The notes below the pieces were generated by a model. That model made no database searches. It saw only the letters and a list, made by a program, of their open reading frames with translations, and had not been told where the DNA came from. The position numbers were made by a program, and so were the translations under genes. From NCBI GenBank assembly GCA_030386875.1, contig CM059576.1, positions 12,528,058-12,592,057 of the forward strand: 64,000 nucleotides of DNA. The letters run 5' to 3'. This document shows positions 5,809 through 55,261 of the stretch, piece after piece. The first letter of the stretch is position 1. Every line of letters starts with the position of its first letter. This DNA comes from Morinoia aosen. Taxonomy: Eukaryota > Arthropoda > Malacostraca > Amphipoda > Talitridae.

Positions 5809-6466
5809 AAAAACACAGTTGATTTTTGCTCGATGCGGGCACAACAAGCGAACACTGTGCCTATAGCATCAACAATGTAAGTTGGGATGTTTCTAGCATG
5901 AATTATTTCTAAATTGATATAGCCGCAACCTGCACATTTGGTACCTAACAACAACAACTTACATCTCCTATTACTTAGAGCGACACCCATTATAGCTCCA
6001 ATACTCATACGCGTCCGAGGGACTCATTAATACATATTTTTAGGAAAGCTTACATAAATCTTCAATAAGAAATCGTCATGCCGATGCTTAATTACCTACT
6101 AATAATGAAACAAAATAATGTTTGATGAAATGTTACTGTCAATATTCATGCTTTCAAAAAATATACCTTATTGTCATAATATATTCTATTTTGAATCCAG
6201 GTTCTAAATTTTTATTATATTCTTTCAAGCGCAAGTTTTGTTTTCTATTTTATGTTTCCGATGAGTGACTAGTGTATTTGTGAGGCAATGCTGCACGCCA
6301 TCCGGTATACATATATGTTGACCACAATATCCGTCGCTCACAACAACACGCTGACTCTCATTGTTGGTGCTATGGGCATTGTTGTTGCTTCTTACATTTT
6401 GGTTCTTGTAATATCAACGCATCACTCTTTTATTTCTTATATATGAATTACATTGTTGGTTTCCAC
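5809..6466. other. Unannotated AT-rich spacer
   Basis: No gene, RNA or structured repeat was recognised. Short open frames here lack coding character. Confidence 0.5.
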
Positions 6467-7506
6467 GTTGGTGGTGTAGGTACGGTGGTGGTGGTGTAGG
6501 TACGGTGGTGGTGTAGGTACGGTGGTGGTGTAGGTACGGTGGTGGTGTAGGTACGGTGGTGGTGTAGGTACGGTGGTGGTGTAGGTACGGTGGTGGTATA
6601 GGTACGGTGGTGGTGTAGGTACGGTGGTGGTGGTGTAGGTACGGTGGTGGTGTAGGTACGGTGGTGGTGGTGTAGGTACTGTGGTGGTGTAGGTACGGTG
6701 GTGGTGTAGGTACAGTGGTGGTGTTAGTACGGTGGTGGTGTAGGTACGGTTGTGGTGTAGGTACAGTGGAGGTGTAGGTACGGTGCTGGTGTAGGTACGG
6801 TGGTGGTGTAGGTACGGTGGTGGTGTAGGTACGGTGGTGGTGTAGGTACGGTGGTGGTGTAGGTACGGTGGTGGTGTAGGTACGGTGGTGGTGTAGGTAC
6901 GGTTGTGGTGTAGGTACAGTGGTGGTGTAGGTACGGTGGTGGTGTAGGTACGGTAGTGGTGTAGTTACGGTGGTGGTGTAGGTACGGTGGTGGTGTAGGT
7001 ACGGTGCTGGTGTAGGTATGGTGCTGGTGTAGGTACGGTGCTGGTGTAGGAACGGTGGTGGTGTAGGTACGGTGGTGGTGTAGGCACGGTGGTGGTGTAG
7101 GTACGGTGGTGGTGTAGGTACGGTGGTGGTGTAGGTACGGTGGTGGTGTAGGTACGGTGGTGGTGTAGGAACGGTGGTGGTGTAGGTACGGTGGTGGTGT
7201 AGGTACGGTGGTGGTGTAGGTAGGGTGGTGGTGTAGGTACGGTGGTGGTGTAGGTACGGTGGTGGTGTAGGTACGGTGGTGGTGTAGGTACGGTGGTGGT
7301 GTAGGTACGGTGGTGGTGTAGGTACGGTGGTGGTGTAGGTACGGTGGTGGTGTAGGTACGGTGGTGGTGTAGGTACGGTGGTCGTGTAGGTACGGTGGTG
7401 GTGTAGGTACGGTGGTGGTGTAGGTACGGTGGTGGTGTAGGTACGGTGGTGGTGTAGGTACGGTGGTGGTGTAGGTACGGTGGTGGTGTAGGTACGGTGG
7501 TGGTGT
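6467..7506. repeat. 17-bp minisatellite array (about 60 copies)
   Basis: The unit is GTAGGTACGGTGGTGGT, repeated head to tail with rare point variants (for example TGCTGGT, GTTGTGG, TTAGTAC) and occasional extra GGT triplets near the left end. The strand asymmetry is extreme: G and T on the plus strand with one C per unit. No flanking target duplication was recognised. Confidence 0.97.
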
Positions 7507-8589: not shown

Positions 8590-9252
8590 GGGGTAGGGTG
8601 TGGTGGGCGAGCTGGGGGTTAGGTGGGGTGTGGTGGGCGAGCTGGGGGTTAGGTGGGGTGTGGTGGGCGAGCTGGGGGTTAGGTGGGGTGTGGTACGCGA
8701 GCTGGGGGTTAGGTGGGGGTGTGGTGGGCGATCTGGGGGTTAGGCGGAGTGTGGTGAGAGAGCTAGGGGTTAGGTGGGGTGTGGTGGGCGAGCTGGGGGT
8801 TAGGTGGGGTGTGGTGGGCGATCTGGGGGCTTAGGCGGAGTGTGGTGAGAGAGCTAGGGGTTAGGTGGGGTGTGGTGGGCGAGCTGGGGGTTAGGTGGGG
8901 TGTGGTTGGCGATCTGGGGGTTAGGTGGGGTGTGGTGGGCGAGCTGGGGGTTAGGTGGGGTGTGGTGGGCGAGCTGGGGGTTAGGTGGGGATGTGGTGGG
9001 CGAGCTGGGGGTTGGGTGGGGTGTGGTGGGCGAGCTGGGGGTTAGGTGGGGTGTGGTGGGCGAGCTGGGGTTAGGTGGGGTGTGGTGGGCGAGCTAGGAG
9101 TTAGGTGGCGTGTGGTGGGCGAGCTGGGGTTAGGTGGGGTGTGGTGGGTGAGCTGGGGGTTAGGTGGGGTCTGGTGGGTGAGCTGGAGGTTAGGTGGGGT
9201 CTGGTGGGTGAGCTGGGGGTTAGGTGGGGTGTGGTGGGTGAGCTGGGGGTTA
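8590..9252. repeat. 30-bp minisatellite array (about 22 copies)
   Basis: The unit contains GGTGGGCGAGCTGGGGGTTA then GGTGGGGTGT, 30 bp long. The plus strand is nearly free of C and holds the G-run motif GGGGGTTAGGTGGGG once per unit, four closely spaced G tracts of a kind that can fold as a G-quadruplex. Open frames through the array (Trp/Gly/Val-rich) are a by-product of the 30-bp period. Copy B of the duplicated unit begins directly at its right end. Confidence 0.97.
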
Positions 9253-38170: not shown

Positions 38171-38696
38171 CTGCAGGCAGCGAGTTACTCCGATATTGAG
38201 AAGCTCTGTGATTGGTGGAAAACGGAGAGAAATTAGAAATAAGTAAAAATATTTAACTTGCATGAATGTAGCTTAATAGAGCTTTCCACACGTAACGAAT
38301 TTTGTAGAGGACTATTTTGTTCATATAATGATGGCGATGACAGGAATTTTAGTGACAGTGTCACGCAATAGTGCTCGTAAACATGTTTAACGTGCTTTGT
38401 TCATGCAAGCTCGTTTGATTCGACCGCTCCGTGAACACAGCTCTCAAGTTTTTGCGCTTCTGAAAGATTCGCTCTGATGTCACGTCAGGGTTACCACTTG
38501 TTTTCATCACTTAATCTGGAATGCAGTAAAATATTACATACTTGAAATACTTACAATTTTCACAGACATGTTTACACTTAATTTAATGTATCATGAATAA
38601 TTTAATTGTTTATTTCAGTGTTTCATTTCATGCTTAACCACGGTAAAAATAGTATAGCGTAGAATAAGTGGTTGGGATAAAAAATGACAAAAATCT

Positions 38697-39974
38697 ACCG
38701 GCGTGCCAAATTGCGACCAGTCGCGCGAACGGAAACTCGAACGCACTCTTTCTCCCTAAAAACAGGGTAAAGAAGACCGGCAGGCGGCAGCAGAGGGACT
38801 TCATAACGCCGTTAGGTACAGAATTTCTGGAGATTTCTTGAGTTCACCTCGTGCGACTTTACACTTAAGTTTACCGACTCGTAACTTTGGAACGAATGCA
38901 CCCATCGACTTCAAATTACTCTTAAATGAAAGAGCGAAACATTCTCTACCTCCCATATCGAACACAAGACCACGACCCTAACGGTTCTCTCATAAATACA
39001 GAAATTATTCGTTAAGCTTACCCGACTCGCGCGCTGTCAAAATTAATTGCGTTTACCGACTCGTAACTTTTGAAAGAATCCACTCATCGACTTCTAATTA
39101 CTCTTAAATGAAAAAGCGAAACATTCTCTACCTCCCATATCGAACACAAGACCACGACCCTAACGGTTCTCTCATAAATACAGAAATTATTCGTTAAGCT
39201 TACCCGACTCGCGCGCTTTCAAAATTAATTGCGTTTACCGACTCGTAACTTTTGAAAGAATCCACTCATCGACTTCTAATTACTCTTAAATGAAAGAGCG
39301 AAACATTCTCTACCTCCCATATCGAACACAAGACCACGACCCTAACGGTTCTCTCATAAATACAGAAATTATTCGTTAAGCTTACCCGACTCGCGCGCTG
39401 TCAAAATTAATTGCGTTTACCGACTCGTAACTTTTGAAAGAATCCACTCATCGACTTCTAATTACTCTTAAATGAAAGAGCGAAACATTCTCTACCTCCC
39501 ATATCGAACACAAGACCACGACCCTAACGGTTCTCTCATAAATACAGAAATTATTCGTTAAGCTTACCCGACTCGCGCGCTGTCAAAATTAATTGCGTTT
39601 ACCGACTCGTAACTTTTGAAAGAATCCACTCATCGACTTCTAATTACTCTTAAATGAAAGAGCGAAACATTCTCTACCTCCCATATCGAACACAAGACCA
39701 CGACTCTAACGGTTCTCTCATAAATACAGAAATTATTCGATAAGCTTACCCGACTCGCGCGCCGTCAAAATTAATTGCGTTTACCGACTCGTAACTTTTG
39801 AAAGAATCCACTCATCGACTTCTAATTACTCTTAAATGAAAGAGCGAAACATTCTCTACTCCCCATATCGAACACAAGACCACGACTCTAACGGTTCTCT
39901 CATAAATACAGAAATTATTCGATAAGCTTACCCGACTCGCGCGCCGTCGAAAGTAATTGCGTTTACCGACTCGT
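38697..39974 (+). repeat. Left terminal inverted repeat (1.28 kb)
   Basis: The outer 175 bp (to about 38,870) are single copy: ACCGGCGTGCCAAATTGCGA, then GACCAGTCGCGCGAACGG, AACAGGGTAAAGAAGACCGG and CTTAACG-like inner words. Then comes the 182-bp satellite. Comparison with the right arm shows isolated differences only (for example CGAACGC/CGAATGC near 38,748). Such ends are where a Mutator-type transposase binds and cuts. Confidence 0.95.
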
Positions 39975-40012
39975 AACTTTTGAAAGAATCCACTCATCGA
40001 CTTCTAATAACT
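38871..40012. repeat. 182-bp satellite in left TIR (six periods)
   Basis: The anchor ACCGACTCGTAAC recurs at 38,873, 39,055, 39,237, 39,419, 39,601, 39,783 and 39,965, exactly 182 bp apart. Each unit also has CCCGACTCGCGCGC, giving two CGACTCG words per unit, plus ACCACGACCCTAACGG and GAAAGAGCGAAACATTC. The outermost unit is the most diverged (ACTTTGGAACGAATGCACCC), as in the right arm. Confidence 0.97.
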
Positions 40013-40257
40013 CTCAAACGGGGTAATATTAGTATCTGTAAGTCTCATTTTTTCTGTACTTGCAATCATGTTAATTTCTGAATAAGTTTGATGCCTAATA
40101 CTGTCAACTTGACTCTGTCATTGGGGGAAGATATTTTGAGAATTACAACATAATTAGGATGAATTCAACATGCACATGATCGTTTGAAGGTCTGGACTCT
40201 TTACACATAAACTGAATACATCCTTTACATTTATTTTAGCTTACCTTCTCAGCTTTC
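40013..40257. other. Spacer between left TIR and internal array
   Basis: Short AT-rich spacer; nothing recognised. Confidence 0.5.
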
Positions 40258-41312
40258 TCGAGATAGCGTACAGCGAAGACGACGACCACGACCCATTTTT
40301 TCTTCTGTAGTTGAATCCTATATGCCAAGGCTTGAGTAGCTCCATTGGTCTTATTTAGTGCTCCCGTCTTCGATGGTGAGTGATTATGCCTTTCATTACA
40401 ACCCCACTATAATGGAAAACTGCCAAAAATCAGTCTGCCGCTATAGTGAGGCTATAATTTGGGCTATAAAGAAGCCTTTATTCATAAACAAAAATTATTC
40501 ATTCATATACAAAATTATTCATAACATATACAAAATTATTCTACAGAACTCGATTATTGGAACATTTCTGCCGGGCCGGAGGCTTCAAAACCTTCCACAT
40601 CGAACTTTTCTTGAGATAGCGTACAGCGAAGACGATGACCACGACCCATTTTTTCTTCTGTAGTTGAATCCTATATGCCAAGGCTTGAGTAGCTCCATTG
40701 GTCTTATTTAGTGCTCCCGTCTTCGATGGTGAGTGATTATGCCTTTCATTACAACCTCACTATAATGGAAAACTGCCAAAAATCAGTCTGCCGCTATAGT
40801 GAGGCTATAATTTGGGCTATAAAGAAGCCTTTATTCATAAACAAAAATTATTCATTCATATACAAAATTATTCATAACATATACAAAATTATTCTACAGA
40901 ACTCGATTATTGGAACATTTCTGCCGGGCCGGAGGCTTCAAAACCTTCCACATCGAACTTTTCTTGAGATAGCGTACAGCGAAGACGATGACCACGACCC
41001 ATTTTTTCTTCTGTAGTTGAATCCTATATGCCAAGGCTTGAGTAGCTCCATTGGTCTTATTTAGTGCTCCCGTCTTCGATGGTGAGTGATTATGCCTTTC
41101 ATTACAACCCCACTATAATGGAAAACTGCCAAAAATCAGTCTGCCGCTATAGTGAGGCTATAATTTGGGCTATAAAGAAGCCTTTATTCATAAACAAAAA
41201 TTATTCATTCATATACAAAATTATTCATAACATATACAAAATTATTCTACAGAACTCGATTATTGGAATATTTCTGCCGGGCCGGAGGCTTCAAAACCTT
41301 CCACATCGAACT
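40258..41312. repeat. 353-bp tandem array (three copies)
   Basis: Three near-identical units run head to tail; GAGATAGCGTACAGCGAAGA recurs at 40,260, 40,613 and 40,966. Each holds a short A/T-rich subrepeat (ACAAAATTATTCATA) and a GC-rich GCCGGGCCGGAGGC. The same 101-codon frame is open in the first two copies and cut short in the third, as expected from duplication rather than coding. The motif ACCACGACCC is shared with the 182-bp TIR satellite. Confidence 0.96.
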
Positions 41313-41395
41313 CATTGCATTCGGTGAGTTATGAACGTCAAAGAAACACATCCGAACGTGTACATGTGCACACAGATACATAGACATTCATATTT

Positions 41396-42300
41396 GCGTG
41401 CGCACACATGAACACACACATGCACACACCTACACACACATATTCATGTATATATACTTATTGAAAATGAATGCAAGGAAAATGAAAATACTAATAAACA
41501 TAAAAAACAATCTTGCTCCTGCTACATCTAAAATGACAGTCAAGCTTTGTGTAATCGTCAGAAATAACCTGAGGAAAAAGTAAATAATATGCTAAAAGAC
41601 TTCGAAAAACGTAGAAATGAAATGCTTTTTAATTTCGGAAAATTAGTTTTAAGAAAACTAAATTTTTCAAGGAACAAGAACAAAAGAACATATTTCATAT
41701 TTTCTCCAACATCATGCGGACATGGGTACATGGGGTAAAATGGAGATACAGTGTATGCGTGATATCACTCATGATTAGCAGATATCTACGAAATTTCTGT
41801 AGAAATGCGTAGACAAACAAACATATACTCAACATCAAAATTCATAGCTTGTTCAACATACGGACAGAAAGAAAATTTTACTACTATTCATAGGCTCTTG
41901 GAATTGGGCTTTATTGCACTAAATTGATTTCTCAATTTTTTCCTATTCACAAAAACGCCCCTGGGGAAGTGGTAGATCTATTTTATATTTTCTTCGCTAG
42001 TGCAATTAAATTAATTAAGCGGATGGTTTTCACGTAAAGAAATGAAATAGAAACATGTATGTCTATTTATGTAAATATACATATACCTACATACGTACAC
42101 ACGCATACTAATCTACATATACATATTGAAAATGAAATATAAGAGTAAATAATATGTACATATAATAACAACATGAAAACAACCTACCATCTACTAAATC
42201 GAAAATTACAGTCGAGCTCACTGTAATCGTAAGAAATTTTTCAGACAAAATAACTAAAAGGAAAGAAAACTTCGAAAAACGTAAAAATACAATGAATGAA
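41396..42300. repeat. Pair of diverged direct repeats 3' of the transposase gene
   Basis: About 220 bp at 41,396-41,620 and 42,082-42,300 are diverged copies. Both have CACA/TACA-rich starts, TATTGAAAATGAATG-like and TAAATAATATG words, an ACAGTC.AGCT core, GTAATCGT.AGAAAT, and finally CTTCGAAAAACGTA. The second copy directly follows the transposase stop codon and probably contains its 3' untranslated region. The 460 bp between them show nothing else. Confidence 0.7.
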
Positions 42301-42333
42301 CACTTAAAACGAAAGTTGTAAGGAGCCATTTCA

Positions 42334-45300
42334 TCAGGAGTCAAGCTGAATCTCTTCGATCTTGAAAATTCTTTCTCCGTAGAGTCCGACCAGCTTTCCT
42401 TCTTCATCAGTGAAGTTTTCTTTTCTCTTTGACGATGGAAATTCCATGACAACATTTTGCTCGAGGCAGAAGATGATGTGTCTTCTCATTTTCTCTTTGA
42501 CATAGGTTATAAGGCTGGGATCATGACCATTTACCACGGACGTAACGAACGCTAAACAGAATGGTCCGCAACTGGATGCGTCCATTTGATGTTGTACTGT
42601 TACACATTCAATAATCAGTTTCCTTATTGTCTTTATGCCTGTATAGAGATTCTGCAGATACTTTTTTACGTCGGTACTTGGTGCGCCGTTTAAAGAACAA
42701 ATGTGCTGTACATGTGCTACACCTTCTTCAGAGCGGTCGCGAGACAATGCATTGGTGATGACTATCCAATGGGTACCGCCGTCACTCGCACTTTTGTAAC
42801 CAGTCTTTTTGACCATGACCTTGCACCGGTTGTAGGTAGTATTGAGGACTTGTATAAATTTTTCGCTGGCGTATCTCAGGGGCGGTGGAGTAAAGCACGT
42901 CAGCGGCGAGTCGAATTTATACTGAGGATGGCAATTTCTAACAAGTCTTGCGAAGCCTTCTATCGTGTCACTTGTGAGCCAACTGGAGCATTGCAGGATG
43001 TTATCCTTGTCCTTCCTTTTTAGACCAAAACGACTGAGCCACATCATTTCACTTGGTGAGTATGTTTCTTCTGATTTGTACGTTTCCAAAGAGAACAATT
43101 TTTCTTTGTTGACATGCTGATTATGTTCATCATTGTATTTAACTTTCTTGTACGACTCCTTCTTTCGGGGCGACGTTGAAATGCTTCTACGGCGAAATTT
43201 CGCCAGCTTCACGATATCGCAAACGTTGGTCGATTGCGTTTCGCGTGTGTCATCTTTCTCAGATAGACGACCCTGTCGGACTTTTGCTTTCTCTTTAGCT
43301 TTAGAGCTGTAAGATTGCTCCAATTTTTCTTTTTTCTTTGACCAACGTTCAACAAATTCACTTAGATTAGAAATGACTTTTTTCTGAACGATTTTGTAGT
43401 CTTTTTCGGATTCTATCGTTCTGCCTTTAGTTTGTTCATACATTTTGAAAATAAAGTCAGCTGTTGATACTTGCTGTCCTCGGAGAATATCCCTCTTCAC
43501 GATCTTGTGCCACCCCTCCACTAATCCGTTTGTTTCAGTTCCACCATGGATTCCACACCAGAGTGGCGTGAATGGCATGCAGGTTGTCAGTATTTTCTCC
43601 ATGAAACTTGGAGAATAAAATGGGTTTTTCACACTACCTTCATTTGCAAGGTTATTTTTTACCTCTTCAGCTACAGACACGAATTTTTTACCTACTGCAC
43701 ATTTTTCACGATATCTTCCGCCATCTTCAACCACCAATGCGTTGGTCGACTCAACACTGTCACATTCACTACCAACGTAGCCACGGTCAAGAAGAGGTTT
43801 TATTTCTTCTCCAAGAAAACGGCTCTGTACTATTTTAGCCAGGTTTCGAAACACAGAGTACAGTTCATCTCTAGAGGAGGCTTCTGTCATGTCGGCGAAG
43901 TATTGTTTAATTATGCTACGGTCTTTGGGCTTCATATTCGGATAAAATTTTTTGCAGTTGTGTGCGATATTGTTCATAAAATGGGCTCTGCACAATTTTA
44001 TATTCAGGAAGTTTAGTTCTGACTCTTCAGGATGCATCCACAACTTGTCAAGGTAGGTAGGCAGATCGCCCAGCTTAAATGAGGACACTATTGCGTGTAG
44101 ATAAGCAAAGCTGTGGTCAACTACTATGCACTTCGGCGCGAGCTCTTTTCCGTGCACTTTTCGATAGTTGTGCAAGAGGCTGGCCAGCATGGCTTCGATG
44201 GTGTTGGCCGAACTTTGTTTTGTCAACATGGAGGTTGCTGTTAACTGTGGAGCTCCGCTGTGGCGCTGGTATACAACCGCGTGATATAAGTAGTTTCGGC
44301 CTTCTGAACCTTTGATGATACCACCTGTTGAATCTAAATGAAGAGTTACATTGGGGCATCTAGCTAGTTCGCGCAGCTCTCCTTCAGATTGCAGCACGAT
44401 CCTTGACGTAAGTGGGTCGAATTCGGAAACAAAACCTGGGATGATTTTGTTCTCTGCTGAGTCTATGTTATGAAGAATCTTAGCGGTTAATTGGAGATTC
44501 TCCTCTTTATCTTGTGAAATTTTAAAATTGTTCTTGACGTTCTGCCCAAGTTTTTTCAAATTGTTCAGAGAGAAAATCTTCGGTTTCATATTCTTACCAA
44601 CTGCCGCGTGTCGAATTTGATCATAGTACACGTTTGAGGGTCCATCTCTTAGAACAGCTTCTCCAATAACTCTTCTTTCCTCCTTTTCAGCTTGTCGCCT
44701 AGTTACTTTATGGTTCTTATCAGCTTCGGTCTTTTCCAACAAATAAATGGTACATATGTTCACCTTTTCTTCGAGACCGGGGAAATAAACAATTTTTTGC
44801 TTCAGCTTACATGATGGCTCTTGGCATTTAATCAGGAAGCTGAAAAGTGGATCCCCTGCAAAACTGGAGTTGCGATGTTTTTTCCTTTCATAAACTTTTA
44901 TAACGCAATCATTATTCACGTTCCGTATGCCATTCAGAAGAGTCTTGTGCTTTTCATGTCCTGGTTCAAATATGTTGTTAGGGCTACAATTATCTATCAC
45001 CACCTTAAATCTTTGCTTCAATTTATAAGAATGATTTATTTTTCTTTCCAAAAAATAATTTAGATTAGTTTCGACACTTCTTTTCTGCGCCGCAAGTTTC
45101 CATTCTCGCATGAAAGATGCTTCATACACCTCATAATCTTGAGCCTGATGCACTTCGTTACTTTTTCCATTAATGCCTTCAGTGCTATATTCGACCTCGA
45201 AGCACACGGCTGGTGATTTGTTTCCGTTTTCTTCCTGCGAGTTCTCCTCTTCCCCATCATCTTCGGAATTGGCCTCTGATCCCTCTTGAGAAGCCGCCAG

Positions 45301-45912
45301 TGATGTGTCATCGGCTTGTGATGATTCTTCCTGTGAGTTCTCCTCTTCCCCATCATCTTCGGAATTGGCCTCTGATCCCTCTTGAGAATCCGCCAGTGAT
45401 GTGTCATCGGCTTGTGATGATTCTTCCTGTGAATTCTCCTCTTCCCCATCATCTTCGGAATTGGCCTCTGATCCCTCTTGAGAATCCGCCAGTGATGTGT
45501 CATCGGCTTGTGATGATTCTTCCTGTGAATTCTCCTCTTCCCCATCATCTTCGGAATTGGCCTCTGATCCCTCTTGAGAAGCCGCCAGTGATGTGTCATC
45601 GGCTTGTGATGATTCTTCCTGTGAGTTCTCCTCTTCCCCATCATCTTCGGAATTGGCCTCTGATCCCTCTTGAGAAGCCGCCAGTGATGTGTCATCGGCT
45701 TGTGATGATTCTTCCTGTGAGTTCTCCTCTTCCCCATCATCTTCGGAATTGGCCTCTGATCCCTCTTGAGAAGCCGCCAGTGATGTGTCATCGGCTTGTG
45801 ATGATTCTTCCTGTGAGTTCTCCTCTTCCCCATCATCTTCGGAATTGGCCTCTGATCCCTCTTGAGAATCCGCCAGTGATGTGTGTTCGGCTTCTGATGT
45901 TTTCCCATCGAC
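42334..45912 (-). CDS. MULE transposase fused to Ulp1-like protease, large exon
   Basis: Numbering counts residue 1 at the GTG at 45,918, two codons before the exon. Order: acidic tail with seven 32-residue repeats (18-231), a basic linker region, MULE transposase (about 520-830) with VTLHLDSTGG (D529), CIVVDHSFAY (D601), CRAHF (C643, H646) and TNGLVEGWHKIVK (E801), a basic linker with RRRSISTSPRKK (about 860-945), then a C48-type domain (about 955-1160): WLTSDTIEGFARL, THWIVIT (H1050, W1051), Q1111 and DASSCGPF (C1117). The transposase cuts and joins DNA; Ulp1 domains cleave SUMO isopeptide bonds. The usual Asp of the YDSL motif reads ICSL (C1074), so protease activity is uncertain. No in-frame ATG precedes residue 270, and a stop lies 15 codons upstream of the GTG, so it is read as the 3'-terminal exon, acceptor GGTGAAG at 45,913. 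MULE-Ulp1 fusions are known from plants (Kaonashi type). Confidence 0.92.
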   Translation of the reverse strand, partial: VDGKTSEAEHTSLADSQEGSEANSEDDGEEENSQEESSQADDTSLAASQEGSEANSEDDGEEENSQEESSQADDTSLAASQEGSEANSEDDGEEENSQEESSQADDTSLAASQEGSEANSEDDGEEENSQEESSQADDTSLADSQEGSEANSEDDGEEENSQEESSQADDTSLADSQEGSEANSEDDGEEENSQEESSQADDTSLAASQEGSEANSEDDGEEENSQEENGNKSPAVCFEVEYSTEGINGKSNEVHQAQDYEVYEASFMREWKLAAQKRSVETNLNYFLERKINHSYKLKQRFKVVIDNCSPNNIFEPGHEKHKTLLNGIRNVNNDCVIKVYERKKHRNSSFAGDPLFSFLIKCQEPSCKLKQKIVYFPGLEEKVNICTIYLLEKTEADKNHKVTRRQAEKEERRVIGEAVLRDGPSNVYYDQIRHAAVGKNMKPKIFSLNNLKKLGQNVKNNFKISQDKEENLQLTAKILHNIDSAENKIIPGFVSEFDPLTSRIVLQSEGELRELARCPNVTLHLDSTGGIIKGSEGRNYLYHAVVYQRHSGAPQLTATSMLTKQSSANTIEAMLASLLHNYRKVHGKELAPKCIVVDHSFAYLHAIVSSFKLGDLPTYLDKLWMHPEESELNFLNIKLCRAHFMNNIAHNCKKFYPNMKPKDRSIIKQYFADMTEASSRDELYSVFRNLAKIVQSRFLGEEIKPLLDRGYVGSECDSVESTNALVVEDGGRYREKCAVGKKFVSVAEEVKNNLANEGSVKNPFYSPSFMEKILTTCMPFTPLWCGIHGGTETNGLVEGWHKIVKRDILRGQQVSTADFIFKMYEQTKGRTIESEKDYKIVQKKVISNLSEFVERWSKKKEKLEQSYSSKAKEKAKVRQGRLSEKDDTRETQSTNVCDIVKLAKFRRRSISTSPRKKESYKKVKYNDEHNQHVNKEKLFSLETYKSEETYSPSEMMWLSRFGLKRKDKDNILQCSSWLTSDTIEGFARLVRNCHPQYKFDSPLTCFTPPPLRYASEKFIQVLNTTYNRCKVMVKKTGYKSASDGGTHWIVITNALSRDRSEEGVAHVQHICSLNGAPSTDVKKYLQNLYTGIKTIRKLIIECVTVQHQMDASSCGPFCLAFVTSVVNGHDPSLITYVKEKMRRHIIFCLEQNVVMEFPSSKRKENFTDEEGKLVGLYGERIFKIEEIQLDS
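45226..45867 (-). repeat. 96-bp coding minisatellite (seven copies)
   Basis: Seven almost identical 96-bp units encode 32-residue acidic repeats built on SQEGSEANSEDDGEEENSQE followed by ESSQADDTSLAA or LAD. The variation is limited to a few bases (GCC/TCC giving Ala/Asp, and GAATTC/GAGTTC), so the expansion is recent. The period keeps all frames open, which produces long but meaningless frames on both strands. Confidence 0.96.
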
Positions 45913-46063
45913 CTTCACCAGTGCACAATGAAAAGAACATTTTAATCACGGGTACCATTAGGCTGGATGTGTTTGTTTGACACCCACACCTGGATAATTT
46001 AGGGATGTAATGAATTGTGAATCCCTAAATTGATAATTTTGGGATTTAATACTGACGGAGAAC
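45913..46063. other. Intron edge matching a dispersed repeat
   Basis: The intron side of the splice acceptor (TTCACCAGTGCACAATG on the plus strand, then GGCTGGATGTGTTTGTTTG) resembles the blocks at 7,800-8,005 and 62,880-63,085 over about 75 bp. Beyond it is a short inverted motif (TTTAGGGAT ... ATCCCTAAA) near 45,997-46,028. Confidence 0.5.
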
Positions 46064-46170
46064 CAGGGTTGGCACAAAAAAAACCCACCCAAAAAAAACC
46101 ACCTAAAAAAGCCCAAAAAAACCCACATTAAAAAGCCCACTAAATAGTGTTTTTTTTTTGTTTTTTTTGG
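46064..46170 (+). mobile_element. Possible hAT-like transposon terminus
   Basis: CAGGGTTGGCACAAAAAAAA followed by ACCCACC/AAAAAGCCC repeats and then GTTTTTTTTGGGG has the look of the left end of a hAT element, whose ends begin CAG and are often followed by such C/A- then G/T-rich stem sequence. I did not find the facing CTG end or an 8-bp duplication. The BED-finger relic at 49,251 could belong to the same insertion. It lies within intron 2 of the transposase gene. Confidence 0.45.
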
Positions 46171-47927
46171 GGTTTTATCATGGTGACTACTGATTTTTCA
46201 TTTCCAAATTTTACTACTTTTTACTACCTTCAACGGCCAAAAAATTACTACCTTTTTTGAACACAAAGAATGTTGTCCAAATGTCCAGATGGTAGTAATA
46301 GGCCTATAATGAGTAATGTAAGTCAATAATATCCGCAATACCAAAAGTTCAAAAGAAGCTCCAAGTTTCTTAATACTTAAAATACTTAATACTGAATGGA
46401 GCAACCGAAGCTTTACTGCAAAAAAGTTACCTAAATTTCTATGGTACCCAGTCCTAAATGAACTCCAACAAAAGTTTTGTGAAGACCTTGTCTTAACATC
46501 TTTCAACTATGAGGGCAACAGTTCATCATATGGAAAAAATAAACTGACTGAAAACTAGTAGATACCAGGGGATTTTCAGATCCCTTTACAGCAGGATAGA
46601 ATATCAAGGAATTTCATTATGACCAAACACTATGGCACTTCGGAAATATGATTTTGTAAACTATTTCTATGGTACCTCAAAATCTAAATCGGCATCTTAA
46701 TTGCGATCAATAATAAATAGGTTATGAACATGTTATGTTACGGAACCAATCACGAAAATGCAAATTTCATCTAGCTTTCCTATATACTTTTAGTAGAAGA
46801 ATGAACTTTGATTACATGGAGTATCTGCATGCTATGACGACATCCTGGAGGTAACTGAATCGTCATGACTGCCAAAAGGAACTTCAAAGGAACTAAACCC
46901 TCATTCAAATGATGACACATTGTATCAAAAGATAATTTTAAAGCATTATTCTTTCTGTATTTGGACATGAATGAACGTTACTGAAAAAAAACCTTCAGCT
47001 TTACAAAGAAGTAATTAAAAAAAAAACATTTATAGTCACAGTAAATCGTTTTTTCCCCAAATCGAAGTGGACAGAATAAACTCGTCTTTCAAAGGAAGAT
47101 AATACTGCTCACAATCAAGCTCAGGTTTAAAAAAAACCCTTTATGGATATAAATGAACTGCGGAGAAGTTCCTACGGCGTCATTGCAATGGTTCTATCCT
47201 GACGCAACAACTTTTAGTGTGGACATATTCGTCTTAGAACAAGAATTGGAAGGCTACATCAAGTTCATGATAGTCAAGACCTTACCAGCTAAATATATGA
47301 CTTGGAATTAAACATTATTCATTAGGAGAACTTACTCATTAGGAGGACTTCATTCATTAAGAGGACTGTTCACAACTTACTCATCTGGAATTGCAGCAGG
47401 ACTCTCTAAAAGCTAATTAAGAATAATTTTATTTCTGTACTTACGTTTGTGAATAAAATACTTTAATTTTTGAGTATCAAGTACACAAAAAGAACAATTA
47501 CGCCAACTTTGCTATACATTTAACGGGCAACTGCATCCACTAAAGATGAAATCCAATAAAATGTAAGAGTTATTTAGTGATAAGTACAACTTCCTATTTA
47601 AAAATTTTTGCTTGTGGTTGAAAGTTATTCATGAGATTTAAAAGAAAAATTTCACAAGATGTTTTACATTTAAGAGAATCGTAATTCTTAATAAAATATA
47701 AGTAATTTTACTTGACAAACATTTCAATAAAAGCTACTTGATATGCTTCCACAAGAAAATATGTAGCGATGGTATTTCATTTTTCCTTGAAATCGTACAA
47801 TGCATATTTGATACGTAAGAATAAAAGATGTTAAATGTCGACCTCATAATCATAATTCGCTCAGCACAAAGAAGAAACCATCGCTTCATCAATTCACTTT
47901 AGAGAATGGAAACAAAGTAGAACTCAC
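46171..47927. other. Intron 2 sequence, AT-rich
   Basis: No gene was recognised. If the hAT-like terminus is real, part of this is its interior. Short open frames have no recognisable domains. Confidence 0.45.
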
Positions 47928-48029
47928 CTTAGCGCACTTCGCCGTAGATGCTGAATCGTTTTCAGCGTGAAAATATTCATTGAGACGAACACCTCCGGTG
48001 GGAGGTCCTTTGCTTGTGTCGCACTTCAA
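47928..48029 (-). CDS. Predicted exon 2 of the MULE-Ulp1 gene
   Basis: The exon has 102 bases, 34 codons, reading LKCDTSKGPPTGGVRLNEYF then HAENDSASTAKCAK. The acceptor is TTTTACTTTCAAG (ending 48,030) and the donor is CTAAG/GTGAGT (47,928/47,927). Both boundaries fall between codons, which matches the phase of exon 1's donor and of the large exon's acceptor, so the joined frame has no stop. There is no recognised domain. The inference rests on splice signals and phase only. Confidence 0.5.
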
Positions 48030-48074
48030 CTTGAAAGTAAAAGAAAAGCGACCATAAGTGAGTATCAGGCCACG

Positions 48075-48236
48075 TAGCTTACTGTTTCCGTGCACCTTTT
48101 GTATAGATTCCGCGTTCCCTCAACTCCATACTAAATGGTGCCTTCCTCTTTCCTTTCTTAGAACATCTTTGTCGGGGTTAAGGGAGGCAAAAACTTTATT
48201 ATATAAAATAATAATAACAATAATAATGGAAAGAAC
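48075..48236 (+). mobile_element. 5'-truncated retroposon copy in intron 1
   Basis: It matches the 3' part of the dispersed retroposon: TAGCTTACTGTTTCCGTGCA, CATACTAAATGGTGCCTTCC, GGTTAAGGGAGGC and a (AAT)n-rich tail. The 5' two thirds are absent, as is common for LINE-mobilised copies. Confidence 0.85.
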
Positions 48237-48887
48237 GGAAATATGTTAATGAGGAAATAATTATCAAAACTTGCGCAAACGTTGTAATATATGCTTTACA
48301 CTTCATTTTGTGATGTTTAGTTATGACGTTTCAGCAGTACTATTGTTTCCATTACATTACTGTACTTTTTCATAAAAGTGCATTTGTACACGAGTTATCA
48401 AAAAAATTTATATTTGTTATTTTTGTTATTTTCAAACGCTTCCTATCAATTTATTGTCCAATTCCGCTAGGGATTGCGACCTAAACATGTTTAATGAGGA
48501 TAATAATAATAATGGTTCATTTGATAGGGTGTCATCTACCGGATGATCGTCGGTAGGAAATAACCCTTGGGTAATTGCTTATAGGGTTTCTTTGCTTATT
48601 TGCCTTTTAATAATAGGGTAAATAATTAAAGAAGTAATCAATGAATTTTGATTCCTGCAGAATTGATGGAAAGGTAATTAGTTATTAATGAGCATTAAAT
48701 AAAATTTAAATAATTACCAATTAAGATTAATTAACAAAGGTTCAGACCAAGGTTCAACCCTGTGGTTAGGGTAATGTATAGTATTTTATATATTTTAAAT
48801 GCACAAGCTGAAAAAAATATTACGTAATTTGGGTATTGTAACTATCACAAACTAAAAATGATTTAAATCGATAGCAAATTGACAAAG
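48237..48887. other. Intron 1 sequence, AT-rich
   Basis: Nothing recognised. Confidence 0.5.
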
Positions 48888-49092
48888 AGCAAATCAGATT
48901 TCACTTAGCGCAATTCTATTTTCACGAGGAGCAAATCAAATTTCACTTGGAGCAATTCTATTTTTACGAGGACCAAATCAAATTTCACTTGGAGCAATTC
49001 TATTTTTACGAGGAGCAAATCAAAATTCACTTCGAGCAATTCTATTTTCACGAGGAGCAAATCAAATTTCACTTGGAGCAAATCAACTTGTA
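48888..49092. repeat. 42-bp tandem repeat (about 4.5 copies)
   Basis: The unit joins GAGGAGCAAATCAAATTTCA, CTTGGAGCAATTC and TATTTTTAC. The copies differ by one to three bases. It lies inside intron 1 of the predicted transposase gene. Confidence 0.92.
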
Positions 49093-49250
49093 AATGGTAC
49101 AGATAGGACTTTAGTGTTTTAATATTATTGCAATTTCCATCGCTACACAGTGTAGTCTAGACTAGCTCATAATATAGTTCAACTCTTTCATCAGAATATA
49201 TTTAGGGGTTTGGTTTTGCAGGTAATAAAAAATATACTGTAATAGATACA

Positions 49251-49424
49251 ATGGCAACAGACGATGTAGAAAGTAAAGCCTATGTGGGGCGATACTATGT
49301 TAAAGATGCAACTGGAGAAAGTGCGAAGTGTATACAGTGCGGCAAGAGTTTACTTTGAAAAGGCTGGTCTACCAGTGGTTTGTTACATCACCTAAAGAGT
49401 GAACACAATATAGTGAAGCCTTAA
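49251..49424 (+). pseudogene. BED-type zinc finger relic
   Basis: ATG at 49,251 opens a 58-codon frame with one internal TGA (49,356). It reads YVGRYYVKDATGESAKCIQC, GKSLL, stop, KGWSTSGLLHHLKSEH. The spacing C-x2-C ... H-x4-H and the STSGLLHHLKSEH stretch are those of a BED finger, the DNA-binding module at the N-terminus of many hAT transposases and ZBED proteins. No catalytic domain follows. The stop replaces a position just after the Cys pair, so it is inactive. Confidence 0.8.
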
Positions 49425-49709
49425 ACTGTAGACCTAGTTGCTTCAACTAGTAGCTGAGAAAAAAAAAATCTATTGGAACAAAGCACCCTCTTGCAAGAGG
49501 GCTTTGCTTCTTGCAAGCACTAAACATAAACAAACAAAAATAACATGTTTCGTAAAGATGCATCAAATTTCTCAGGAAGAAAAAGTGACTAAGATTGTAG
49601 CAATATAGGAAATCCTTCTCAGATAAGAATTTTTCACTCATATAAATATGTATTATATATATACATCGGAGTCGGACTCGCACAAACTAATTTAAGTTTA
49701 TAAATTTAC

Positions 49710-49892
49710 CTGAACTATTCTTGCCAATTGGTAGTTGAAAGCTGCATTCGAGGATTCCAGTGTTCTGAAGCGATTTCTGTCTCTTTCTGGTCTTCTACTT
49801 CCTAATTCTTTAGATAATAGTATATAAAGGGCATTTTTGCTTCTCACACTCTTGCTCGGAAACGTTTTCATGAGCTCGACTACACTGTCCAT
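49710..49892 (-). CDS. Predicted first exon of the MULE-Ulp1 gene
   Basis: ATG at 49,892 starts 61 codons reading MDSVVELMKTFPSKSVRSKN, ALYILLSKELGSRRPERDRN and SSNAAFNYQLARIVQ. They end at a donor CAG/GTAAAT (49,710/49,709), between codons. Exon 1, exon 2 (47,928-48,029) and the large exon (45,912-42,334) splice without a phase change to a predicted 1,287-residue protein. The composition suggests a helical, basic N-terminal domain; no family was recognised. Evidence: ATG, splice consensus and phase agreement, within the TIR-bounded element and on the right strand. Confidence 0.5.
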
Positions 49893-49964
49893 TTTGAAAG
49901 AAGAAAGAATTCACAATATTGAAACGTGCACTTTTTGATTGTCTTAGTTAGTTTTGATCTTTGA

Positions 49965-50195
49965 TTAGTCAAATTTTTTATGATCGTCTGCTGTGACTAA
50001 AGGAATGGAGAACCTAGCACGAGAACTCTTCACATAAAACTGACGCAATATGCACGGAGCATATCGCAACTGCAGGAGAGATCTCAAAACATCCCGAGCG
50101 CAAGCCTCTGGGCCTCCAAAACATTTAAGGGCTTCGTCAGCAGAAATATGCAGTGTGCGCAAAATAATCCCGGCGTCTAGCTGTCCACATGTTAT
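49965..50195 (-). other. Coding-like open frame upstream of exon 1
   Basis: A 77-codon frame reads CGQLDAGIILRTLHISADEA, then FGGPEACARDVLRSLLQLRY, and ends TADDHKKFD, stop, 73 bases before the predicted start codon. Composition is protein-like but it has no recognised domain and no clear splice donor before its stop. It could be an upstream ORF, an earlier exon, or chance. Confidence 0.3.
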
Positions 50196-51776
50196 GAGTT
50201 AGATTAAAGAGTCTCACTTTAAATATGAAGTAGAAAACAGAATTGTTTTTTTCCAATATAAGTTTTACAGTTTCACATGCGAAAAATGAATTCTGTAACC
50301 CATCCGTTGTTTCTTAAAGCTGAAAAGTTCAACGTAACTTACCCATACGAATGAAAAATTGAAACTGAAAAATATTTATCTCTAATTTGCTGATTCGATG
50401 AATCTATACATTGGGATGTAAGAATGATTTAATAAGAAATTAAAGTGCTGAAAGTAGTATTTGAAACAAATTCAATCAAAACATATAAATTAATTCGGCA
50501 GTGTTATATCTGGGGCTAGTAAGCCGTAAAAATGTGCGGTTCTTATTTGCTATAATTTAACGAAACATGGATAAATAAATCAGGATTATTAAGCGGCACA
50601 TAAAATATAAGAAAAGGTAATTGCCTTGTCGCTTGTAGAAAAGCTGATTGGAAGGAAAAAATAAAAAGTATTCAGTGCTTATATTGGAGCTCGTCGTAAA
50701 ATTCGATCAAATATCAAGACCGAAAACACATTAAATTTGAACCGTCTCGGCTGCGGCCTGCCGGTAAAGTAAACAATGAAGTATTGGACTAGCTAAAATT
50801 TTTGACTAGGTAAAATGTGGACTAGCTAAAATTTTATAATACTTCATGGCGGAGAAGCATGGTTCTCACTTTTAAGAACGTATTCTTGAAATGTTCAGAA
50901 CTTTTATATTTTACCCATCCATCAATTTAATTATTTAAAAAACAAAATCAACGCGAAATTTTTTTACTTAAAGCTATGAATTTTAAGTCAAAAATGTGAT
51001 AAACCCGTCAATATTGAACTAGACGCATCGTAAACGCCTGTTGAGCTGAAATAAATTTTGAAAAAAGTAACCAAAAATACCTGAGCATACATCCTGAAAG
51101 AACGCGTTGAGGCATCGAAACAGATTCATTAAGAATAAACATAAACACAACACAAAAATTGTAGTGGATATAATGTATAAACGCCTAAATGAACTGATTC
51201 AAAAGAATATTAATAAAAACAGGCAGTCCATAATAATTCGTTATGCACTACCATAAATTAGTTTATCAAAAATATTTCGCCCTAATGGTCACTCAATATA
51301 ATTTTGGAAAATATACCAACCAAACCAGCTTTGCGAATGACAATTTGATTAGTTGAACTCTTGAATTAAATGAAAACAAAAGAAAAAACAAAGTGACACA
51401 ACTTATCTAGACACAGCAACCGCGGGGAAAAAACTAATAGTTGAGTTCGAGGTTCCACAAATGCTTGAAATGGAAGTAGAATAATATTCTAGGTTTTCTA
51501 GGGCTTAAAGATAGTACATAAGCACAAAACAATTTAAATATTCGCTAAAAAAGGCTTCAATAGGGATCAATATATACCTTGGCACAACAGGAAAAACTTG
51601 AGCTTTTATTCTCCGAAAATATTGATGTAAGAAATGATATCACACTGAGGTTAATTATAATTGTTATTGATTTCCCATGCCTTCTTTTGCCATGAAAAGG
51701 TCTGTTCATTGTAAGTAAATTTGCGGATATTGTTATTTCGTATGTTAGGATAGGATGTTTTGACAACGCGCGAAGT
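50196..51776. other. Unannotated AT-rich interior of the transposon
   Basis: No gene was recognised between the predicted first exon and the right TIR. It presumably includes the promoter of the transposase gene, but no specific signal is convincing. Confidence 0.45.
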
Positions 51777-53053
51777 ACGAGTCGGTCAACCTAAGTTTTT
51801 TGACGGCGCGCGAGTCGGGTAAGCTTATCGAATAATTTCTGTATTTTTCAGAGAACCGTTAGGGTCGTGGTCTTGTGTTCGATATGGGAGGGAGAGAATG
51901 TTTCGCTCTTTCATTTAAGAGTAATTAGAAGTCGATGAGTGGATTCTTTCAAAAGTTACGAGTCGGTAAACGCAATTAATTTTGACGGCGCGCGAGTCGG
52001 GTAAGCTTATCGAATAATTTCTGTATTTATGAGAGAACCGTTAGAGTCGTGGTCTTGTGTTCAATATGGGAGGTAGAGAATGTTTCGCTCTTTCATTTAA
52101 GAGTAATTAGAAGTCGATGAGTGGATTCTTTCAAAAGTTACGAGTCGGTAAACGCAATTAATTTTGACAGCGCGCGAGTCGGGTAAGCTTAACGAATAAT
52201 TTCTGTATTTATGAGAGAACCGTTAGGGTCGTGGTCTTGTGTTCGATATGGGAGGTAGAGAATGTTTCGCTCTTTCATTCAAGAGTAATTAGAAGTCGAT
52301 GAGTGGATTCTTTCAAAAGTTACGAGTCGGTAAACGCAATTAATTTTGACAGCGCGCGAGTCGGGTAAGCTTAACGAATAATTTCTGTATTTATGAGAGA
52401 ACCGTTAGGGTCGTGGTCTTGTGTTCAATATGGGAGGTAGAGAATGTTTCGCTCTTTCATTTAAGAGTAATTAGAAGTCGATGAGTGGATTCTTTCAAAA
52501 GTTACGAGTCGGTAAACGCAATTAATTTTGACAGCGCGCGAGTCGGGTAAGCTTAACGAATAATTTCTGTATTTATGAGAGAACCGTTAGGGTCGTGGTC
52601 TTGTGTTCGATATGGGAGGTAGAGAATGTTTCGCTCTTTCATTTAAGAGTAATTAGAAGTCGATGAGTGGATTCTTTCAAAAGTTACGAGTCGGTAAACG
52701 CAATTAATTTTGACAGCGCGCGAGTCGGGTAAGCTTAACGAATAATTTCTGTATTTATGAGAGAACCGTTAGGGTCGTGGTCTTGTGTTCGATATGGGAG
52801 GTAGAGAATGTTTCGCTCTTTCATTTAAGAGTAATTTGAAGTCGATGGGTGCATCCGTTCCAAAGTTACGAGTCGGTAAACTTAAGTGTAAAGTCGCACG
52901 AGGTGAACTCAAGAAATCTCCAGAAATTCTGTACCTAACGGCGTTATGAAGTCCCTCTGCTGCCGCCTGCCGGTCTTCTTTACCCTGTTTTTAGGGAGAA
53001 AGAGTGCATTCGAGTTTCCGTTCGCGCGACTGGTCGCAATTTGGCACGCCGGT
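51777..53053 (-). repeat. Right terminal inverted repeat with 182-bp satellite
   Basis: The inverse of 38,697-39,974. The anchor TACGAGTCGGT recurs at 51,777, 51,957, 52,139, 52,321, 52,503, 52,685 and 52,867, so it carries the same number of 182-bp periods as the left arm (the innermost is 180 bp). It ends GGTCGCAATTTGGCACGCCGGT-type sequence at 53,053 and is followed by the 9-bp duplication. The innermost partial unit is diverged (GTCAACCTAAGTTTTTTGAC). Confidence 0.95.
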
Positions 53054-53062
53054 CAAAAATCT

Positions 53063-55261
53063 TTCAATAGTAGCCCACACTGGGCTCCCATATTCGTTGC
53101 AGGAAGATAGGGTTGTGCGGCAAATGATGTGAACATTTAAAACAGACTTGACTCAAATCTAATGAAGTTTTCAACTCAGTTTTAGGGTAAAATTATATAA
53201 TCATTATATAGCGGAAACGATGAAAGTAACCACTATACTGAGGTTCCTTATGATTTAGGTCACACGCCATGAAATCTTTTTCATACATCGAAACAATGCC
53301 CCTAGCTATTTGTAAACAAGATATATAATGTAAAAATAATTCGTGCTCACATAAGCCATGCGCATGTAAGATATTATATTCATCAGCTAAAAACTGAAAT
53401 ACACTTTACATTTTTTCGCGTTTTAGTGAACACGAATGAAGTTAATACACCTCCGTTCTTCATTGGCATTGATGGGTAGCACCAGCACAAAATCACTCGT
53501 TGAAAAAAATCTATCAATGAATTCTTTTGAACGAACCGTTATTAGGTATTTGTGTAAAATGAAATTCGCATTGATTAACTTAATTCCCTATCGAAAAAGC
53601 CCTCAGTGATGAATATTTCCTGGTTACAGAAACGACACGTGTGATTTAAGCTCTTGAAATTATGTGCGCGATAACAAACCATATAGCCTGCATCAAATAA
53701 GATCATCAATTTCGACCCCTTGGTTTCATTCTGCATTTTTTTTAATTCAGTACGAACATGCTACCTCCAGCTATCTCGATCAAGCGAAGACAGGGAGCGT
53801 TCCCTATGATGTTAATCACTGGATGCCAGTGTACGTACGTGAGGTGATATAGAAGTGTTGTTTTTTCGCTTGTAATTGGTCCACTGTACATATTTATTTC
53901 ACAGTATTTTAATAAGCAGAACGCAACTGTAACCTATTTTCAAGGGTCTCGGGCATGAAATCACGATTGCGTTGAAAGAGAGGATACGAATGTTTTTCAT
54001 ATTTGCAAATCGTAAGAGAAACTAATAATATTTGTAACAAAACAACGTTAACTTTAACCCAATTGCATTTCAAATTACTCATAGGACGGACACTTGGAGA
54101 GTGTTCGATATTGTACGATATTCAACTTTTATTCGACGATATCGAGTTGATATGTTTTTATAACTGTCGTACGTTAATATTATTTATGAAAATAACTAGG
54201 AAATTACATCCCGAGAGAATCAGTGCAGAGAAATGATTAAACTGTAGGTTTTTGTGAACTGGAAAGCGGGTTATGTATTCATGTTTGTCGAAGTTATTTA
54301 TCAGCAAATTCGATAATAAGTTCTATACGGAAGCCATTCATTATCAGCAAAACATTATTTTGTGTTGAATATTCGTAAGCTCGTTAAAAAAAATTATTTG
54401 CAGTGGAATGGCCAGCAAGTTCCGGTAGCTGCATAGGACGATTGTGACAATCTCAGCAGCTCAAATGTGCTTTGTATCGCTCCGTGTAGCCTTACTAGGC
54501 TCATGATTACAATGGCAGGCGCAGGAACGGCATTTGAACACTGCGTGGAGAGACGGAAATGATGTTCGGATCGCTACACTCATCTGGCTGGGAGTCAATT
54601 TTCAACGTGATTCACTACATTTATTTTCGTTGGCCAAGGAATCCAAGGTGATTATACGAATTTGTATCTAAAAATATAGGTGAAAATACTAACAAAATTG
54701 GCGACGCTAAAACGAAACACGTGGTAAGCTTTGCTGGTATTTTTCTGTGTAATATTATTTTTTTGCAGCTCATATACTGAATTTTGAATGCAGTCTCTAA
54801 CGCCCAATAGATGTTGGTCAAGTCAGGCGCAAAATGGTTTGGCAAGAGAAATTTTCTTTTGCCTGATTCTGATTTTTAATGAATAATTGGAAATCTATGC
54901 TTTTAAATAGAATTCCTTTATGAATTGTATTATCGTTTTACATTTTGATGGTATTTTTGTTAAATGGTAATTAATACCTTACATGCAGTGAATGAAAGAG
55001 CTGCTAAGTACGTGTCAGCAATTGCGTAATAGCACAATGCTTTCAAGTGCATTAAGTGTAATCATGGCATTTACGTAATGTTGGAAAATCTCTCTGATTT
55101 CAATTAGTTGTTCAGTTTTTGAATTAAATATATAATAATGCTAAGTTCAGTTCCTAGCGTCGTATTTAGATAAACATTAAAGTCGTGTTCTGGCTCTTGT
55201 TGCTTCAACGGTTATTCTAGGGGGACCTGGACTGGCATTATGCGGCATATAATTTTGAGAC
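53063..55261. other. Unannotated AT-rich region
   Basis: No gene, RNA or repeat was recognised in 2.2 kb right of the transposon. Confidence 0.5.

Follow-up and report, generated by a model that had tools for sequence, protein, structure and literature searches.

A recently active Mutator-like transposon with foldback arms and a C48-like protein tail in the amphipod Morinoia aosen

The window analysed here is a 64,000-nucleotide stretch of contig CM059576.1 from the amphipod Morinoia aosen, and positions 38697-53053 of it are a complete DNA transposon of 14357 bp that has its own gene and was recently active. Precise ends, duplications of 9-10 bp, empty sites, and full-length copies that are nearly identical and keep the gene intact are all observed directly, as is purifying selection on that gene. 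The element, designated W, quite likely represents a full-length, probably autonomous and recently active cut-and-paste family in the broad Mutator-like element (MULE) superfamily, which includes Mutator and Rehavkus; the family has a foldback build, and its protein most likely ends in a tail with the C48 fold. An initial annotation, made from the letters of the window, had placed a complete Mutator-like transposon at precisely these coordinates, and the duplication, inverted arms and intact large exon that it reported were all found. Twelve other elements that were read whole are called E1-E12, and numbering by open reading frame (ORF) is kept apart from numbering by gene model.

Ends, insertion site and copies of the element

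W lies between two exact copies of a 9-bp target-site duplication (TSD), CAAAAATCT, at 38688-38696 on the left and 53054-53062 on the right, as first annotated. The strand that carries these two copies has no third occurrence of the 9-mer in the window, and the opposite strand has none. When the flanks were joined without W and with one CAAAAATCT, the resulting 194-nt query matched all 40 genome places scored out of 149 first-look candidates, with 94-97% identity (39 matches over positions 1-194 and one over 3-194). All three places that were read (L036, L037 and L038) are empty sites, with one CAAAAATCT, no element and five mismatches in 194 positions each. Empty sites of this kind had been proposed as a check, and they show directly that 14357 bp were inserted and 9 bp duplicated. 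Since the joined flanks match dispersed places and the sites are empty, W landed in one member of a different dispersed repeat. The flanks at 38611-38696 and 53063-53170 are part of that repeat.

The inverted arms of W align without gaps over 1256 bp with 14 mismatches (98.9%), and with small gaps over about 1279/1278 bp, in agreement with the 1.28 kb first estimated. They have a foldback-like build and are not simple terminal inverted repeats (TIRs). Each arm begins with an outer terminal domain of 172 bp, located at 38697-38868 on the left, where it starts with ACCGGCGTGCC, and in inverted orientation at 52882-53053 on the right, with one mismatch to the left copy; these outer 172 bp are identical at all 24 ends of E1-E12. 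Arrays of a 182-bp unit follow, with 6.3 units in the left arm (38869-40018) and 6.1 inverted units in the right arm (51776-52881). Every whole unit of the left array holds two CCGACTCG motifs, and W has 13 of these motifs per arm. Several units are closest to their counterpart in the opposite arm, and the pairs L1/R1 and L5/R5 each differ by 1, whereas 13 differences separate the innermost pair, L6/R6. We read these pairs as suggesting that the arms were copied or homogenised as wholes. Across 13 elements the number of whole units per arm ranges from 2 to 22, which is the variation in unit number by which foldback elements are recognised. A further array, three tandem copies of a 353-bp unit at 40254-41312, stands between the 3' end of the gene and the left arm, and in this region the alignments of E9 and E10 with W are 706 bp shorter. 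The 25 longest out of 34 inverted pairs included no obvious nested TIR element inside W.

Other copies were sought in 29 contigs totalling 1,990,973,590 bases (1.99 Gb). A 174-bp end query gave 861 first-look candidates, and the best 40, which were scored and hence chosen for likeness, are all 100% identical to it, a figure that is silent on the other 821. These 40 ends form 15 facing pairs and 10 single ends. Twelve of the pairs were read whole as E1-E12; C2:1000922-1017736 was left out, and the pairs at C5:39.42 and C4:73.68 Mb were read in their middle 9 kb only. The TSDs are 9 bp long in nine of the twelve, 10 bp in two, and missing in one (E1); a search for further copies with 9-bp duplications had been proposed at the outset.

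Four of these elements, E9, E10, E11 and E12, are full length, each with an intact large ORF and its own duplication. Ends and gene are therefore co-mobile and were active recently, and the possibility raised at the outset that they do not move together is not borne out. Compared end to end with W, E9 has 76 mismatches in 13362 positions, E10 has 79 in 13363 and E11 has 70 in 14355 (0.49-0.59%). E12 is 16,818 bp long, and the five full-length copies measured span 14.4 to 16.8 kb, whereas the remaining eight elements are 7.5-11.5 kb with the interior partly gone. The large ORF is open in W, E5, E9, E10, E11, E12 and a copy at C4:73.69 Mb, and a copy at C5:39.43 Mb has 902 residues of it within the stretch read; E1-E4 and E6-E8 have no ORF of that size. 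A protein search of the genome with a 966-residue core scored 47 gene copies out of 1739 candidates. Forty of them, W included, have no stop (38 span residues 1-966, one 60-966 and one 1-879), and the other seven carry 1 to 4 stops.

Gene structure, transposase and chimeric relatives

The gene lies on the minus strand, where the ORF listing gives a large ORF of 1203 codons, stop to stop, at 42334-45945. We infer a three-exon gene encoding 1287 residues, with all joins in phase 0 and GT...AG introns; the two upstream exons had no place in the initial annotation. Exon 1 (49710-49892) would comprise 61 codons from the ATG and end at the donor CAG/GTAAAT, and exon 2 (47928-48029) would supply 34 codons between the acceptor TTTCAAG/ and the donor AAG/GTGAGT. 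Exon 3 (42334-45912) would begin after the acceptor GTGAAG/GTCGATGG and contains, in order, acidic repeats, a DDE transposase, a basic linker, the C48-like domain and the stop. Exon 1 is supported by a homologue in E1, E6, E7 and E8, which is 63% identical, has the same start, no insertion or deletion and the same donor, and shows a ratio of nonsynonymous to synonymous rates (dN/dS) of 0.44-0.48. E3 and E4, both of which lack any 200-codon ORF, have a frameshift in exon 1. The joins themselves are predicted, which counts against a firm gene model; E5 has the large ORF yet no room for exons 1 and 2, and its right arm array starts where the match to window position 46979 stops.

Near the start of exon 3, seven in-frame 96-bp repeats (45229-45899, minus strand) encode an acidic, Ser-rich unit of 32 residues, and 228 residues counted in this stretch include 88 D+E and 1 K+R. 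By motif count there are 4 such repeats in E12, 6 in E5, 7 in W, 8 in E9, 8 in E10, 11 in E11 and 15 in the copy L031, and it is chiefly in this number that the frames of the gene copies differ.

The DDE core extends from D538 through E810 in ORF numbering (43516-44334 by motif positions, minus strand). Its motifs are LHLD (D538), VVD (D610), CxxH (652-655) and NGLVE (E810), and they are kept in 12 of the 12 copies that hold the DDE part. The transposase appears to fit MULE. W has the long TIRs and a TSD within the 8-11 bp that define the broad Mutator/MULE group, the 72-residue spacing between the first and second Asp falls inside the range of 60-76 given for most arthropod MULE families in PMC13359780, and the Pfam MULE profile (PF10551) matches with an E-value of 0.12 for the whole ORF and 0.034 and 0.017 for pieces of it. 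Other measures tell against this assignment. These Pfam matches all score below the curated cut-off, and the spacing from the second Asp to the Glu is 200, which is outside the usual 120-135 and below the 214 stated there for one family. Pfam gave no integrase match that would indicate Ginger and no FLYWCH zinc finger that would indicate Phantom.

The arms of these elements are of two types, A and B, both built of 182-bp units, and one unit of each agrees at 139 of 180 aligned bases (77%). B-type arms flank an A-type ORF in E5. In E7 and E8 they flank a diverged 5' half and an A-type 3' part, which contains the C48 frame but nothing that matches the DDE part. The mixed make-up of these three elements indicates that modules have been exchanged between subfamilies. 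A second subfamily, formed by E1, E6, E7 and E8 (L009, L016-L021), shares the 172-bp outer end and has different 182-bp units; its transposase exon was not found in the elements read. E7 (L018-L019) and E8 (L020-L021) retain open C48-like frames of 313 and 288 codons together with an intact diverged exon 1, and these two elements might code a protease-like protein without a transposase.

Chimeric relatives such as E5, E7 and E8, and a BED-finger-like remnant in an inferred intron, are what one would expect if the 14.4-kb unit were a composite, a segmental duplication or an assembly artefact. Such an origin is nevertheless highly improbable, because it is contradicted by the full-length copies that have the same order elsewhere with TSDs of their own, and by the empty sites.

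The remnant lies in inferred intron 1, at 49200-49460 on the plus strand. It reads KCIQCGKSLL, an in-frame stop and then KGWSTSGLLHHLKSEH, and is probably left from another transposon; we presume a resemblance to a BED zinc finger, and the 50 residues ahead of the stop have no Pfam match. The same inferred intron includes a 21/42-bp minisatellite at 48887-49086. At 46064, also in an inferred intron, a CAGGGTTGG motif that recalls hAT-type ends stands beside poly-T/G tracts and has no exact partner in the window. Outside W, long minisatellites occupy window positions 1-2046, 6465-7506 and 8592-9252, with units of 45/31, 17 and 30 bp. Scans of the window with Rfam (at gathering scores) and for tRNAs gave no matches.

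The C48-like tail

The region at 42421-43077 (minus strand) encodes a candidate domain related to C48 proteases of the Ulp1/SENP8 kind. With filters switched off, a directed profile built from Ulp1, SENP1 and SENP8 scores the domain at P 2.9e-5, the best value among 54 windows along the protein. The local alignment score with SENP8 is 58, against a shuffle mean of 29.8 (standard deviation 4.4), and was reached by none of 500 shuffles. In the alignment, SSWL..D.IE falls on PSWLND.II (with W989 in ORF numbering), THW on THW, HICSLNG on HYDS / YVDSLSNG, and VQHQMDASSCG on the PQQ...DCG motif. The catalytic His, Gln and Cys thus appear in order as H1059, Q1120 (six residues before the Cys) and C1126.

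Several search results weigh against placing the tail in C48. No C48 match was found in Pfam (at E up to 10, with the ORF and with C-terminal pieces), in NCBIfam, or by phmmer against PDB. On the whole protein the directed profile reaches only P 7.6e-4. One of 5000 shuffles ties its score, and the profile P becomes 0.007 when SENP8 is left out and 0.0006 when Ulp1 or SENP1 is left out. The pair scores with Ulp1 and SENP1 are ordinary, reached by 62 and 32 of 500 shuffles, respectively. A single-sequence AlphaFold model of the C48 part was uninformative, with a confidence (pLDDT) of 45, and was discarded. These are the results to be expected if the tail were unrelated to C48 and the H-Q-C pattern had arisen by chance, particularly as the support comes largely from SENP8. 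We consider this unlikely given the result of the directed profile on the domain, the SENP8 score above all shuffles, and the agreement in motif order (W-L..D..I, HW, Q.....C). The tail is probably a C48 fold, nearest to that of SENP8, in which the third catalytic residue has changed.

That residue is the usual catalytic Asp. Because HICSLNG aligns with HYDS / YVDSLSNG, its position is taken by a Cys, Cys1083, whose codon (TGT) could not become an Asp codon by fewer than two base changes. The HICSLNG sequence is present in 13 of 13 copies, and so are the other Trp, His, Gln and Cys motifs in the 13 copies that hold the C48 part. The initial annotation had described a transposase-Ulp1 fusion; the D, D, CxxH, E and H, Q, C motifs it listed are all present in the intact exon, but it passed over this fourth catalytic position. 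The absence of a C48 profile match, which it had named as a refutation, is borne out to the letter by Pfam, yet the directed C48 profile and the SENP8 alignment speak for the fold.

The loss of the Asp makes a simple deSUMOylase account uncertain. The tail may have kept the C48 fold without being a protease, and could instead be a reader of SUMO or a ubiquitin-like protein or a structural part of the transposase. All 13 copies have Cys where Ulp1, SENP1 and SENP8 have Asp, in spite of purifying selection, as this proposal would predict, but the His, the Gln six residues ahead of the nucleophile, and the nucleophilic Cys are all kept, and we regard it as a possibility somewhat short of even. 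In cysteine proteases a Cys-His pair can suffice, or a different residue can take the third place.

The tail is under purifying selection. Between W and E5, substitutions number 48 in 1015 positions of 3' noncoding sequence compared with 24 in 2895 of the coding sequence (p 3.1e-13) and 7 in 657 of the C48 domain (p 1.6e-5). E7 and E8 each show 6 in 657 in the C48 domain, compared with 47 and 45 in 1015 noncoding positions (p about 1e-5), and E6, which covers part of the coding sequence only, gives p 0.054 and 0.024. The elements E5-E8 probably share history. Over the aligned parts, dN/dS is 0.565 for W-E5, 0.85 for W-E7 and 0.65 for W-E8. Near-identical copies speak against constraint if taken at face value, with dN/dS of 0.71, 0.85, 1.28 and 1.42 for four pairs and two further pairs that lack synonymous changes, but such pairs are uninformative because they hold too few changes.

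Among the 47 scored copies, the four most diverged without a stop were also compared, with Fisher tests. Overall dN/dS is 0.58, 0.57, 0.59 and 0.54 (p 0.017, 0.0064, 0.062 and 0.078), with values of 0.245, 0.213, 0.51 and 0.34 in the last 233 codons (p 0.013, 0.0049, 0.21 and 0.076) and of 0.67, 0.68, 0.58 and 0.65 in the N-terminal and DDE part (p 0.083, 0.089, 0.096 and 0.32). Against two copies of 93% identity, the tail has proportionally fewer nonsynonymous changes than the N-terminal and DDE part (p 0.0006 and 0.0004), whereas synonymous change is alike in the two (p 0.55 and 0.84). Nonsynonymous rates do not differ in this way against the 96% and 97% copies (p 0.85 and 1). The two 93% copies are close kin of each other, and the observation that the tail is held more strictly than the DDE core comes from one lineage.

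In the mechanism that we favour, a spliced three-exon mRNA would be translated into the 1287-residue protein, and its DDE core would cut at the outer 172 bp of each arm. Motifs that recur along the 182-bp arrays may give the transposase additional places to bind, and the acidic repeat region could be a low-complexity segment that contacts chromatin or proteins. The C-terminal domain, most likely of the C48 cysteine-protease fold, would have SUMO or some other ubiquitin-like protein as its target, in the transposition complex or close to it, and would either cleave that protein or, as the change of the usual Asp to Cys hints, bind it. Arms and interiors would be reshuffled between copies through recombination or gap repair, as is suggested by the chimeras and the changing unit numbers.

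Related elements and biological significance

Rehavkus is a sister group of Mutator in Repbase, with arthropod and annelid hosts, and is described as having a 9-bp TSD, one ORF, a minisatellite ahead of the 3' TIR, a PHD finger and TIRs of 26-400 bp (PMC6446971). Whether W is simply a Rehavkus transposon, with a C-terminal domain that is perhaps already a known part of that group, we judge to be evenly balanced. The 9-bp TSD, the single ORF, the repeat array ahead of the 3' arm (the 353-bp units in W) and the arthropod host are all shared. Moreover, Rehavkus-1_TC of the beetle Tribolium, at 9.5 kb, has inverted termini in which a 164-bp unit is repeated in tandem, in most cases five and eight times (PMC10218199), an arrangement close to that of the 182-bp units of W, and the two elements also have in common their TSD length, large size and one transposase ORF. 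On the other hand, scans with Pfam at E up to 10, in which HMMER filters drop most weak matches, found no PHD finger in W, and the arms of W exceed the printed TIR lengths. By comparison with Rehavkus as described, the W family also differs in its length of 14.4 to 16.8 kb (five full-length copies) and in its C48-like tail and acidic repeats.

Ulp1 domains are in print for Mutator elements of hydra, lancelet, Arabidopsis, maize, rice and melon (PMC2836005). W resembles these Ulp1-bearing elements, among them Kaonashi/VANDAL of Arabidopsis, those of melon, rice and grape, and the MuDR elements of hydra and lancelet, in being a MULE-type element that codes an Ulp1-like domain (PMC2836005, PMC13317346). 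It differs from them in its repeat-bearing arms and in the Cys at the Asp position of the protease site, and the Arabidopsis KIU elements, which are non-TIR, carry Ulp1 in a separate gene, unlike the single ORF of W. Kaonashi and the anti-silencing protein VANC have been described, and a 2026 review states that the precise function of Ulp1 in plant elements is unknown (PMC13317346). Ginger1 likewise has a transposase with a C-terminal Ulp1 or OTU domain (PMC2836005), but its core is like the Gypsy integrase, whereas that of W gives a weak MULE match.

Foldback MULEs have also been reported (PMC3169594, PMC4079207). FB/NOF, Tetris and Tm1 share with W long inverted arms, varying numbers of tandem units and TSDs of 8-10 bp (PMC4079207, PMC3169594, PMC8277862). 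The described copies of Tetris are non-autonomous, whereas the W family is rich in intact large coding copies, and Tm1 codes a 496-residue Phantom-type FLYWCH transposase, unlike W. Phantom/Muta and other arthropod MULEs, which include an active mosquito element with a TSD of 8-9 bp (PMC5225508), belong to the same superfamily but have zinc fingers and reach 10.0 kb (PMC5225508, PMC13359780). In a 2026 survey of arthropod MULEs, elements measure 1.4-10.0 kb, TIRs extend up to 1193 bp and ORFs encode 313-1136 residues, and the word Ulp1 is absent from its main text (PMC13359780).

The element had at first been taken to be unusual, in a genome that gave the impression of an insect's. Its length, beyond the range of that survey, agrees with this view, but the Ulp1 Mutators of hydra and lancelet and the similar arms of the beetle Rehavkus-1_TC were already in print, and W is a variant form of a kind of element already known. 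We found no description of an Ulp1-bearing foldback element in the literature searched, which does not extend to Repbase entries and most subscription papers, and we make no claim that such elements are undescribed. One further result counts against the favoured reading: no homologue outside the source genome was detected in protein databases, in protein and pattern scans of viral contigs, or in a pattern scan of prokaryote genomes, collections that are believed poor in animal DNA and are silent on rarity.

A role for SUMO in the transcriptional silencing of animals is a published topic, and the initial annotation had suggested that the tail might counter such silencing. In a more specific form, the tail would be an Asp-lacking C48-like domain fused to the transposase, either a non-canonical deSUMOylase or a reader of SUMO or a ubiquitin-like protein, selected for escaping or using the SUMO-dependent silencing of the host. 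This proposal is speculative, and we think it unlikely. If it were true, a non-canonical C48-like tail would account for the persistence and spread, within a single genome, of dozens of copies whose gene is still open, and if the tail acts on SUMO, the transposase itself would carry a counter-defence. The arms, for their part, display foldback structures and satellite-like arrays in the making. The 38 stop-free full-core copies among the 47 scored, the chimeras, and the variation in arm units and acidic repeats make the role of the Ulp1-like tail testable, and E7 and E8, with an open C48 frame and no DDE part, are natural material for the question of what Ulp1-like tails do in transposons.

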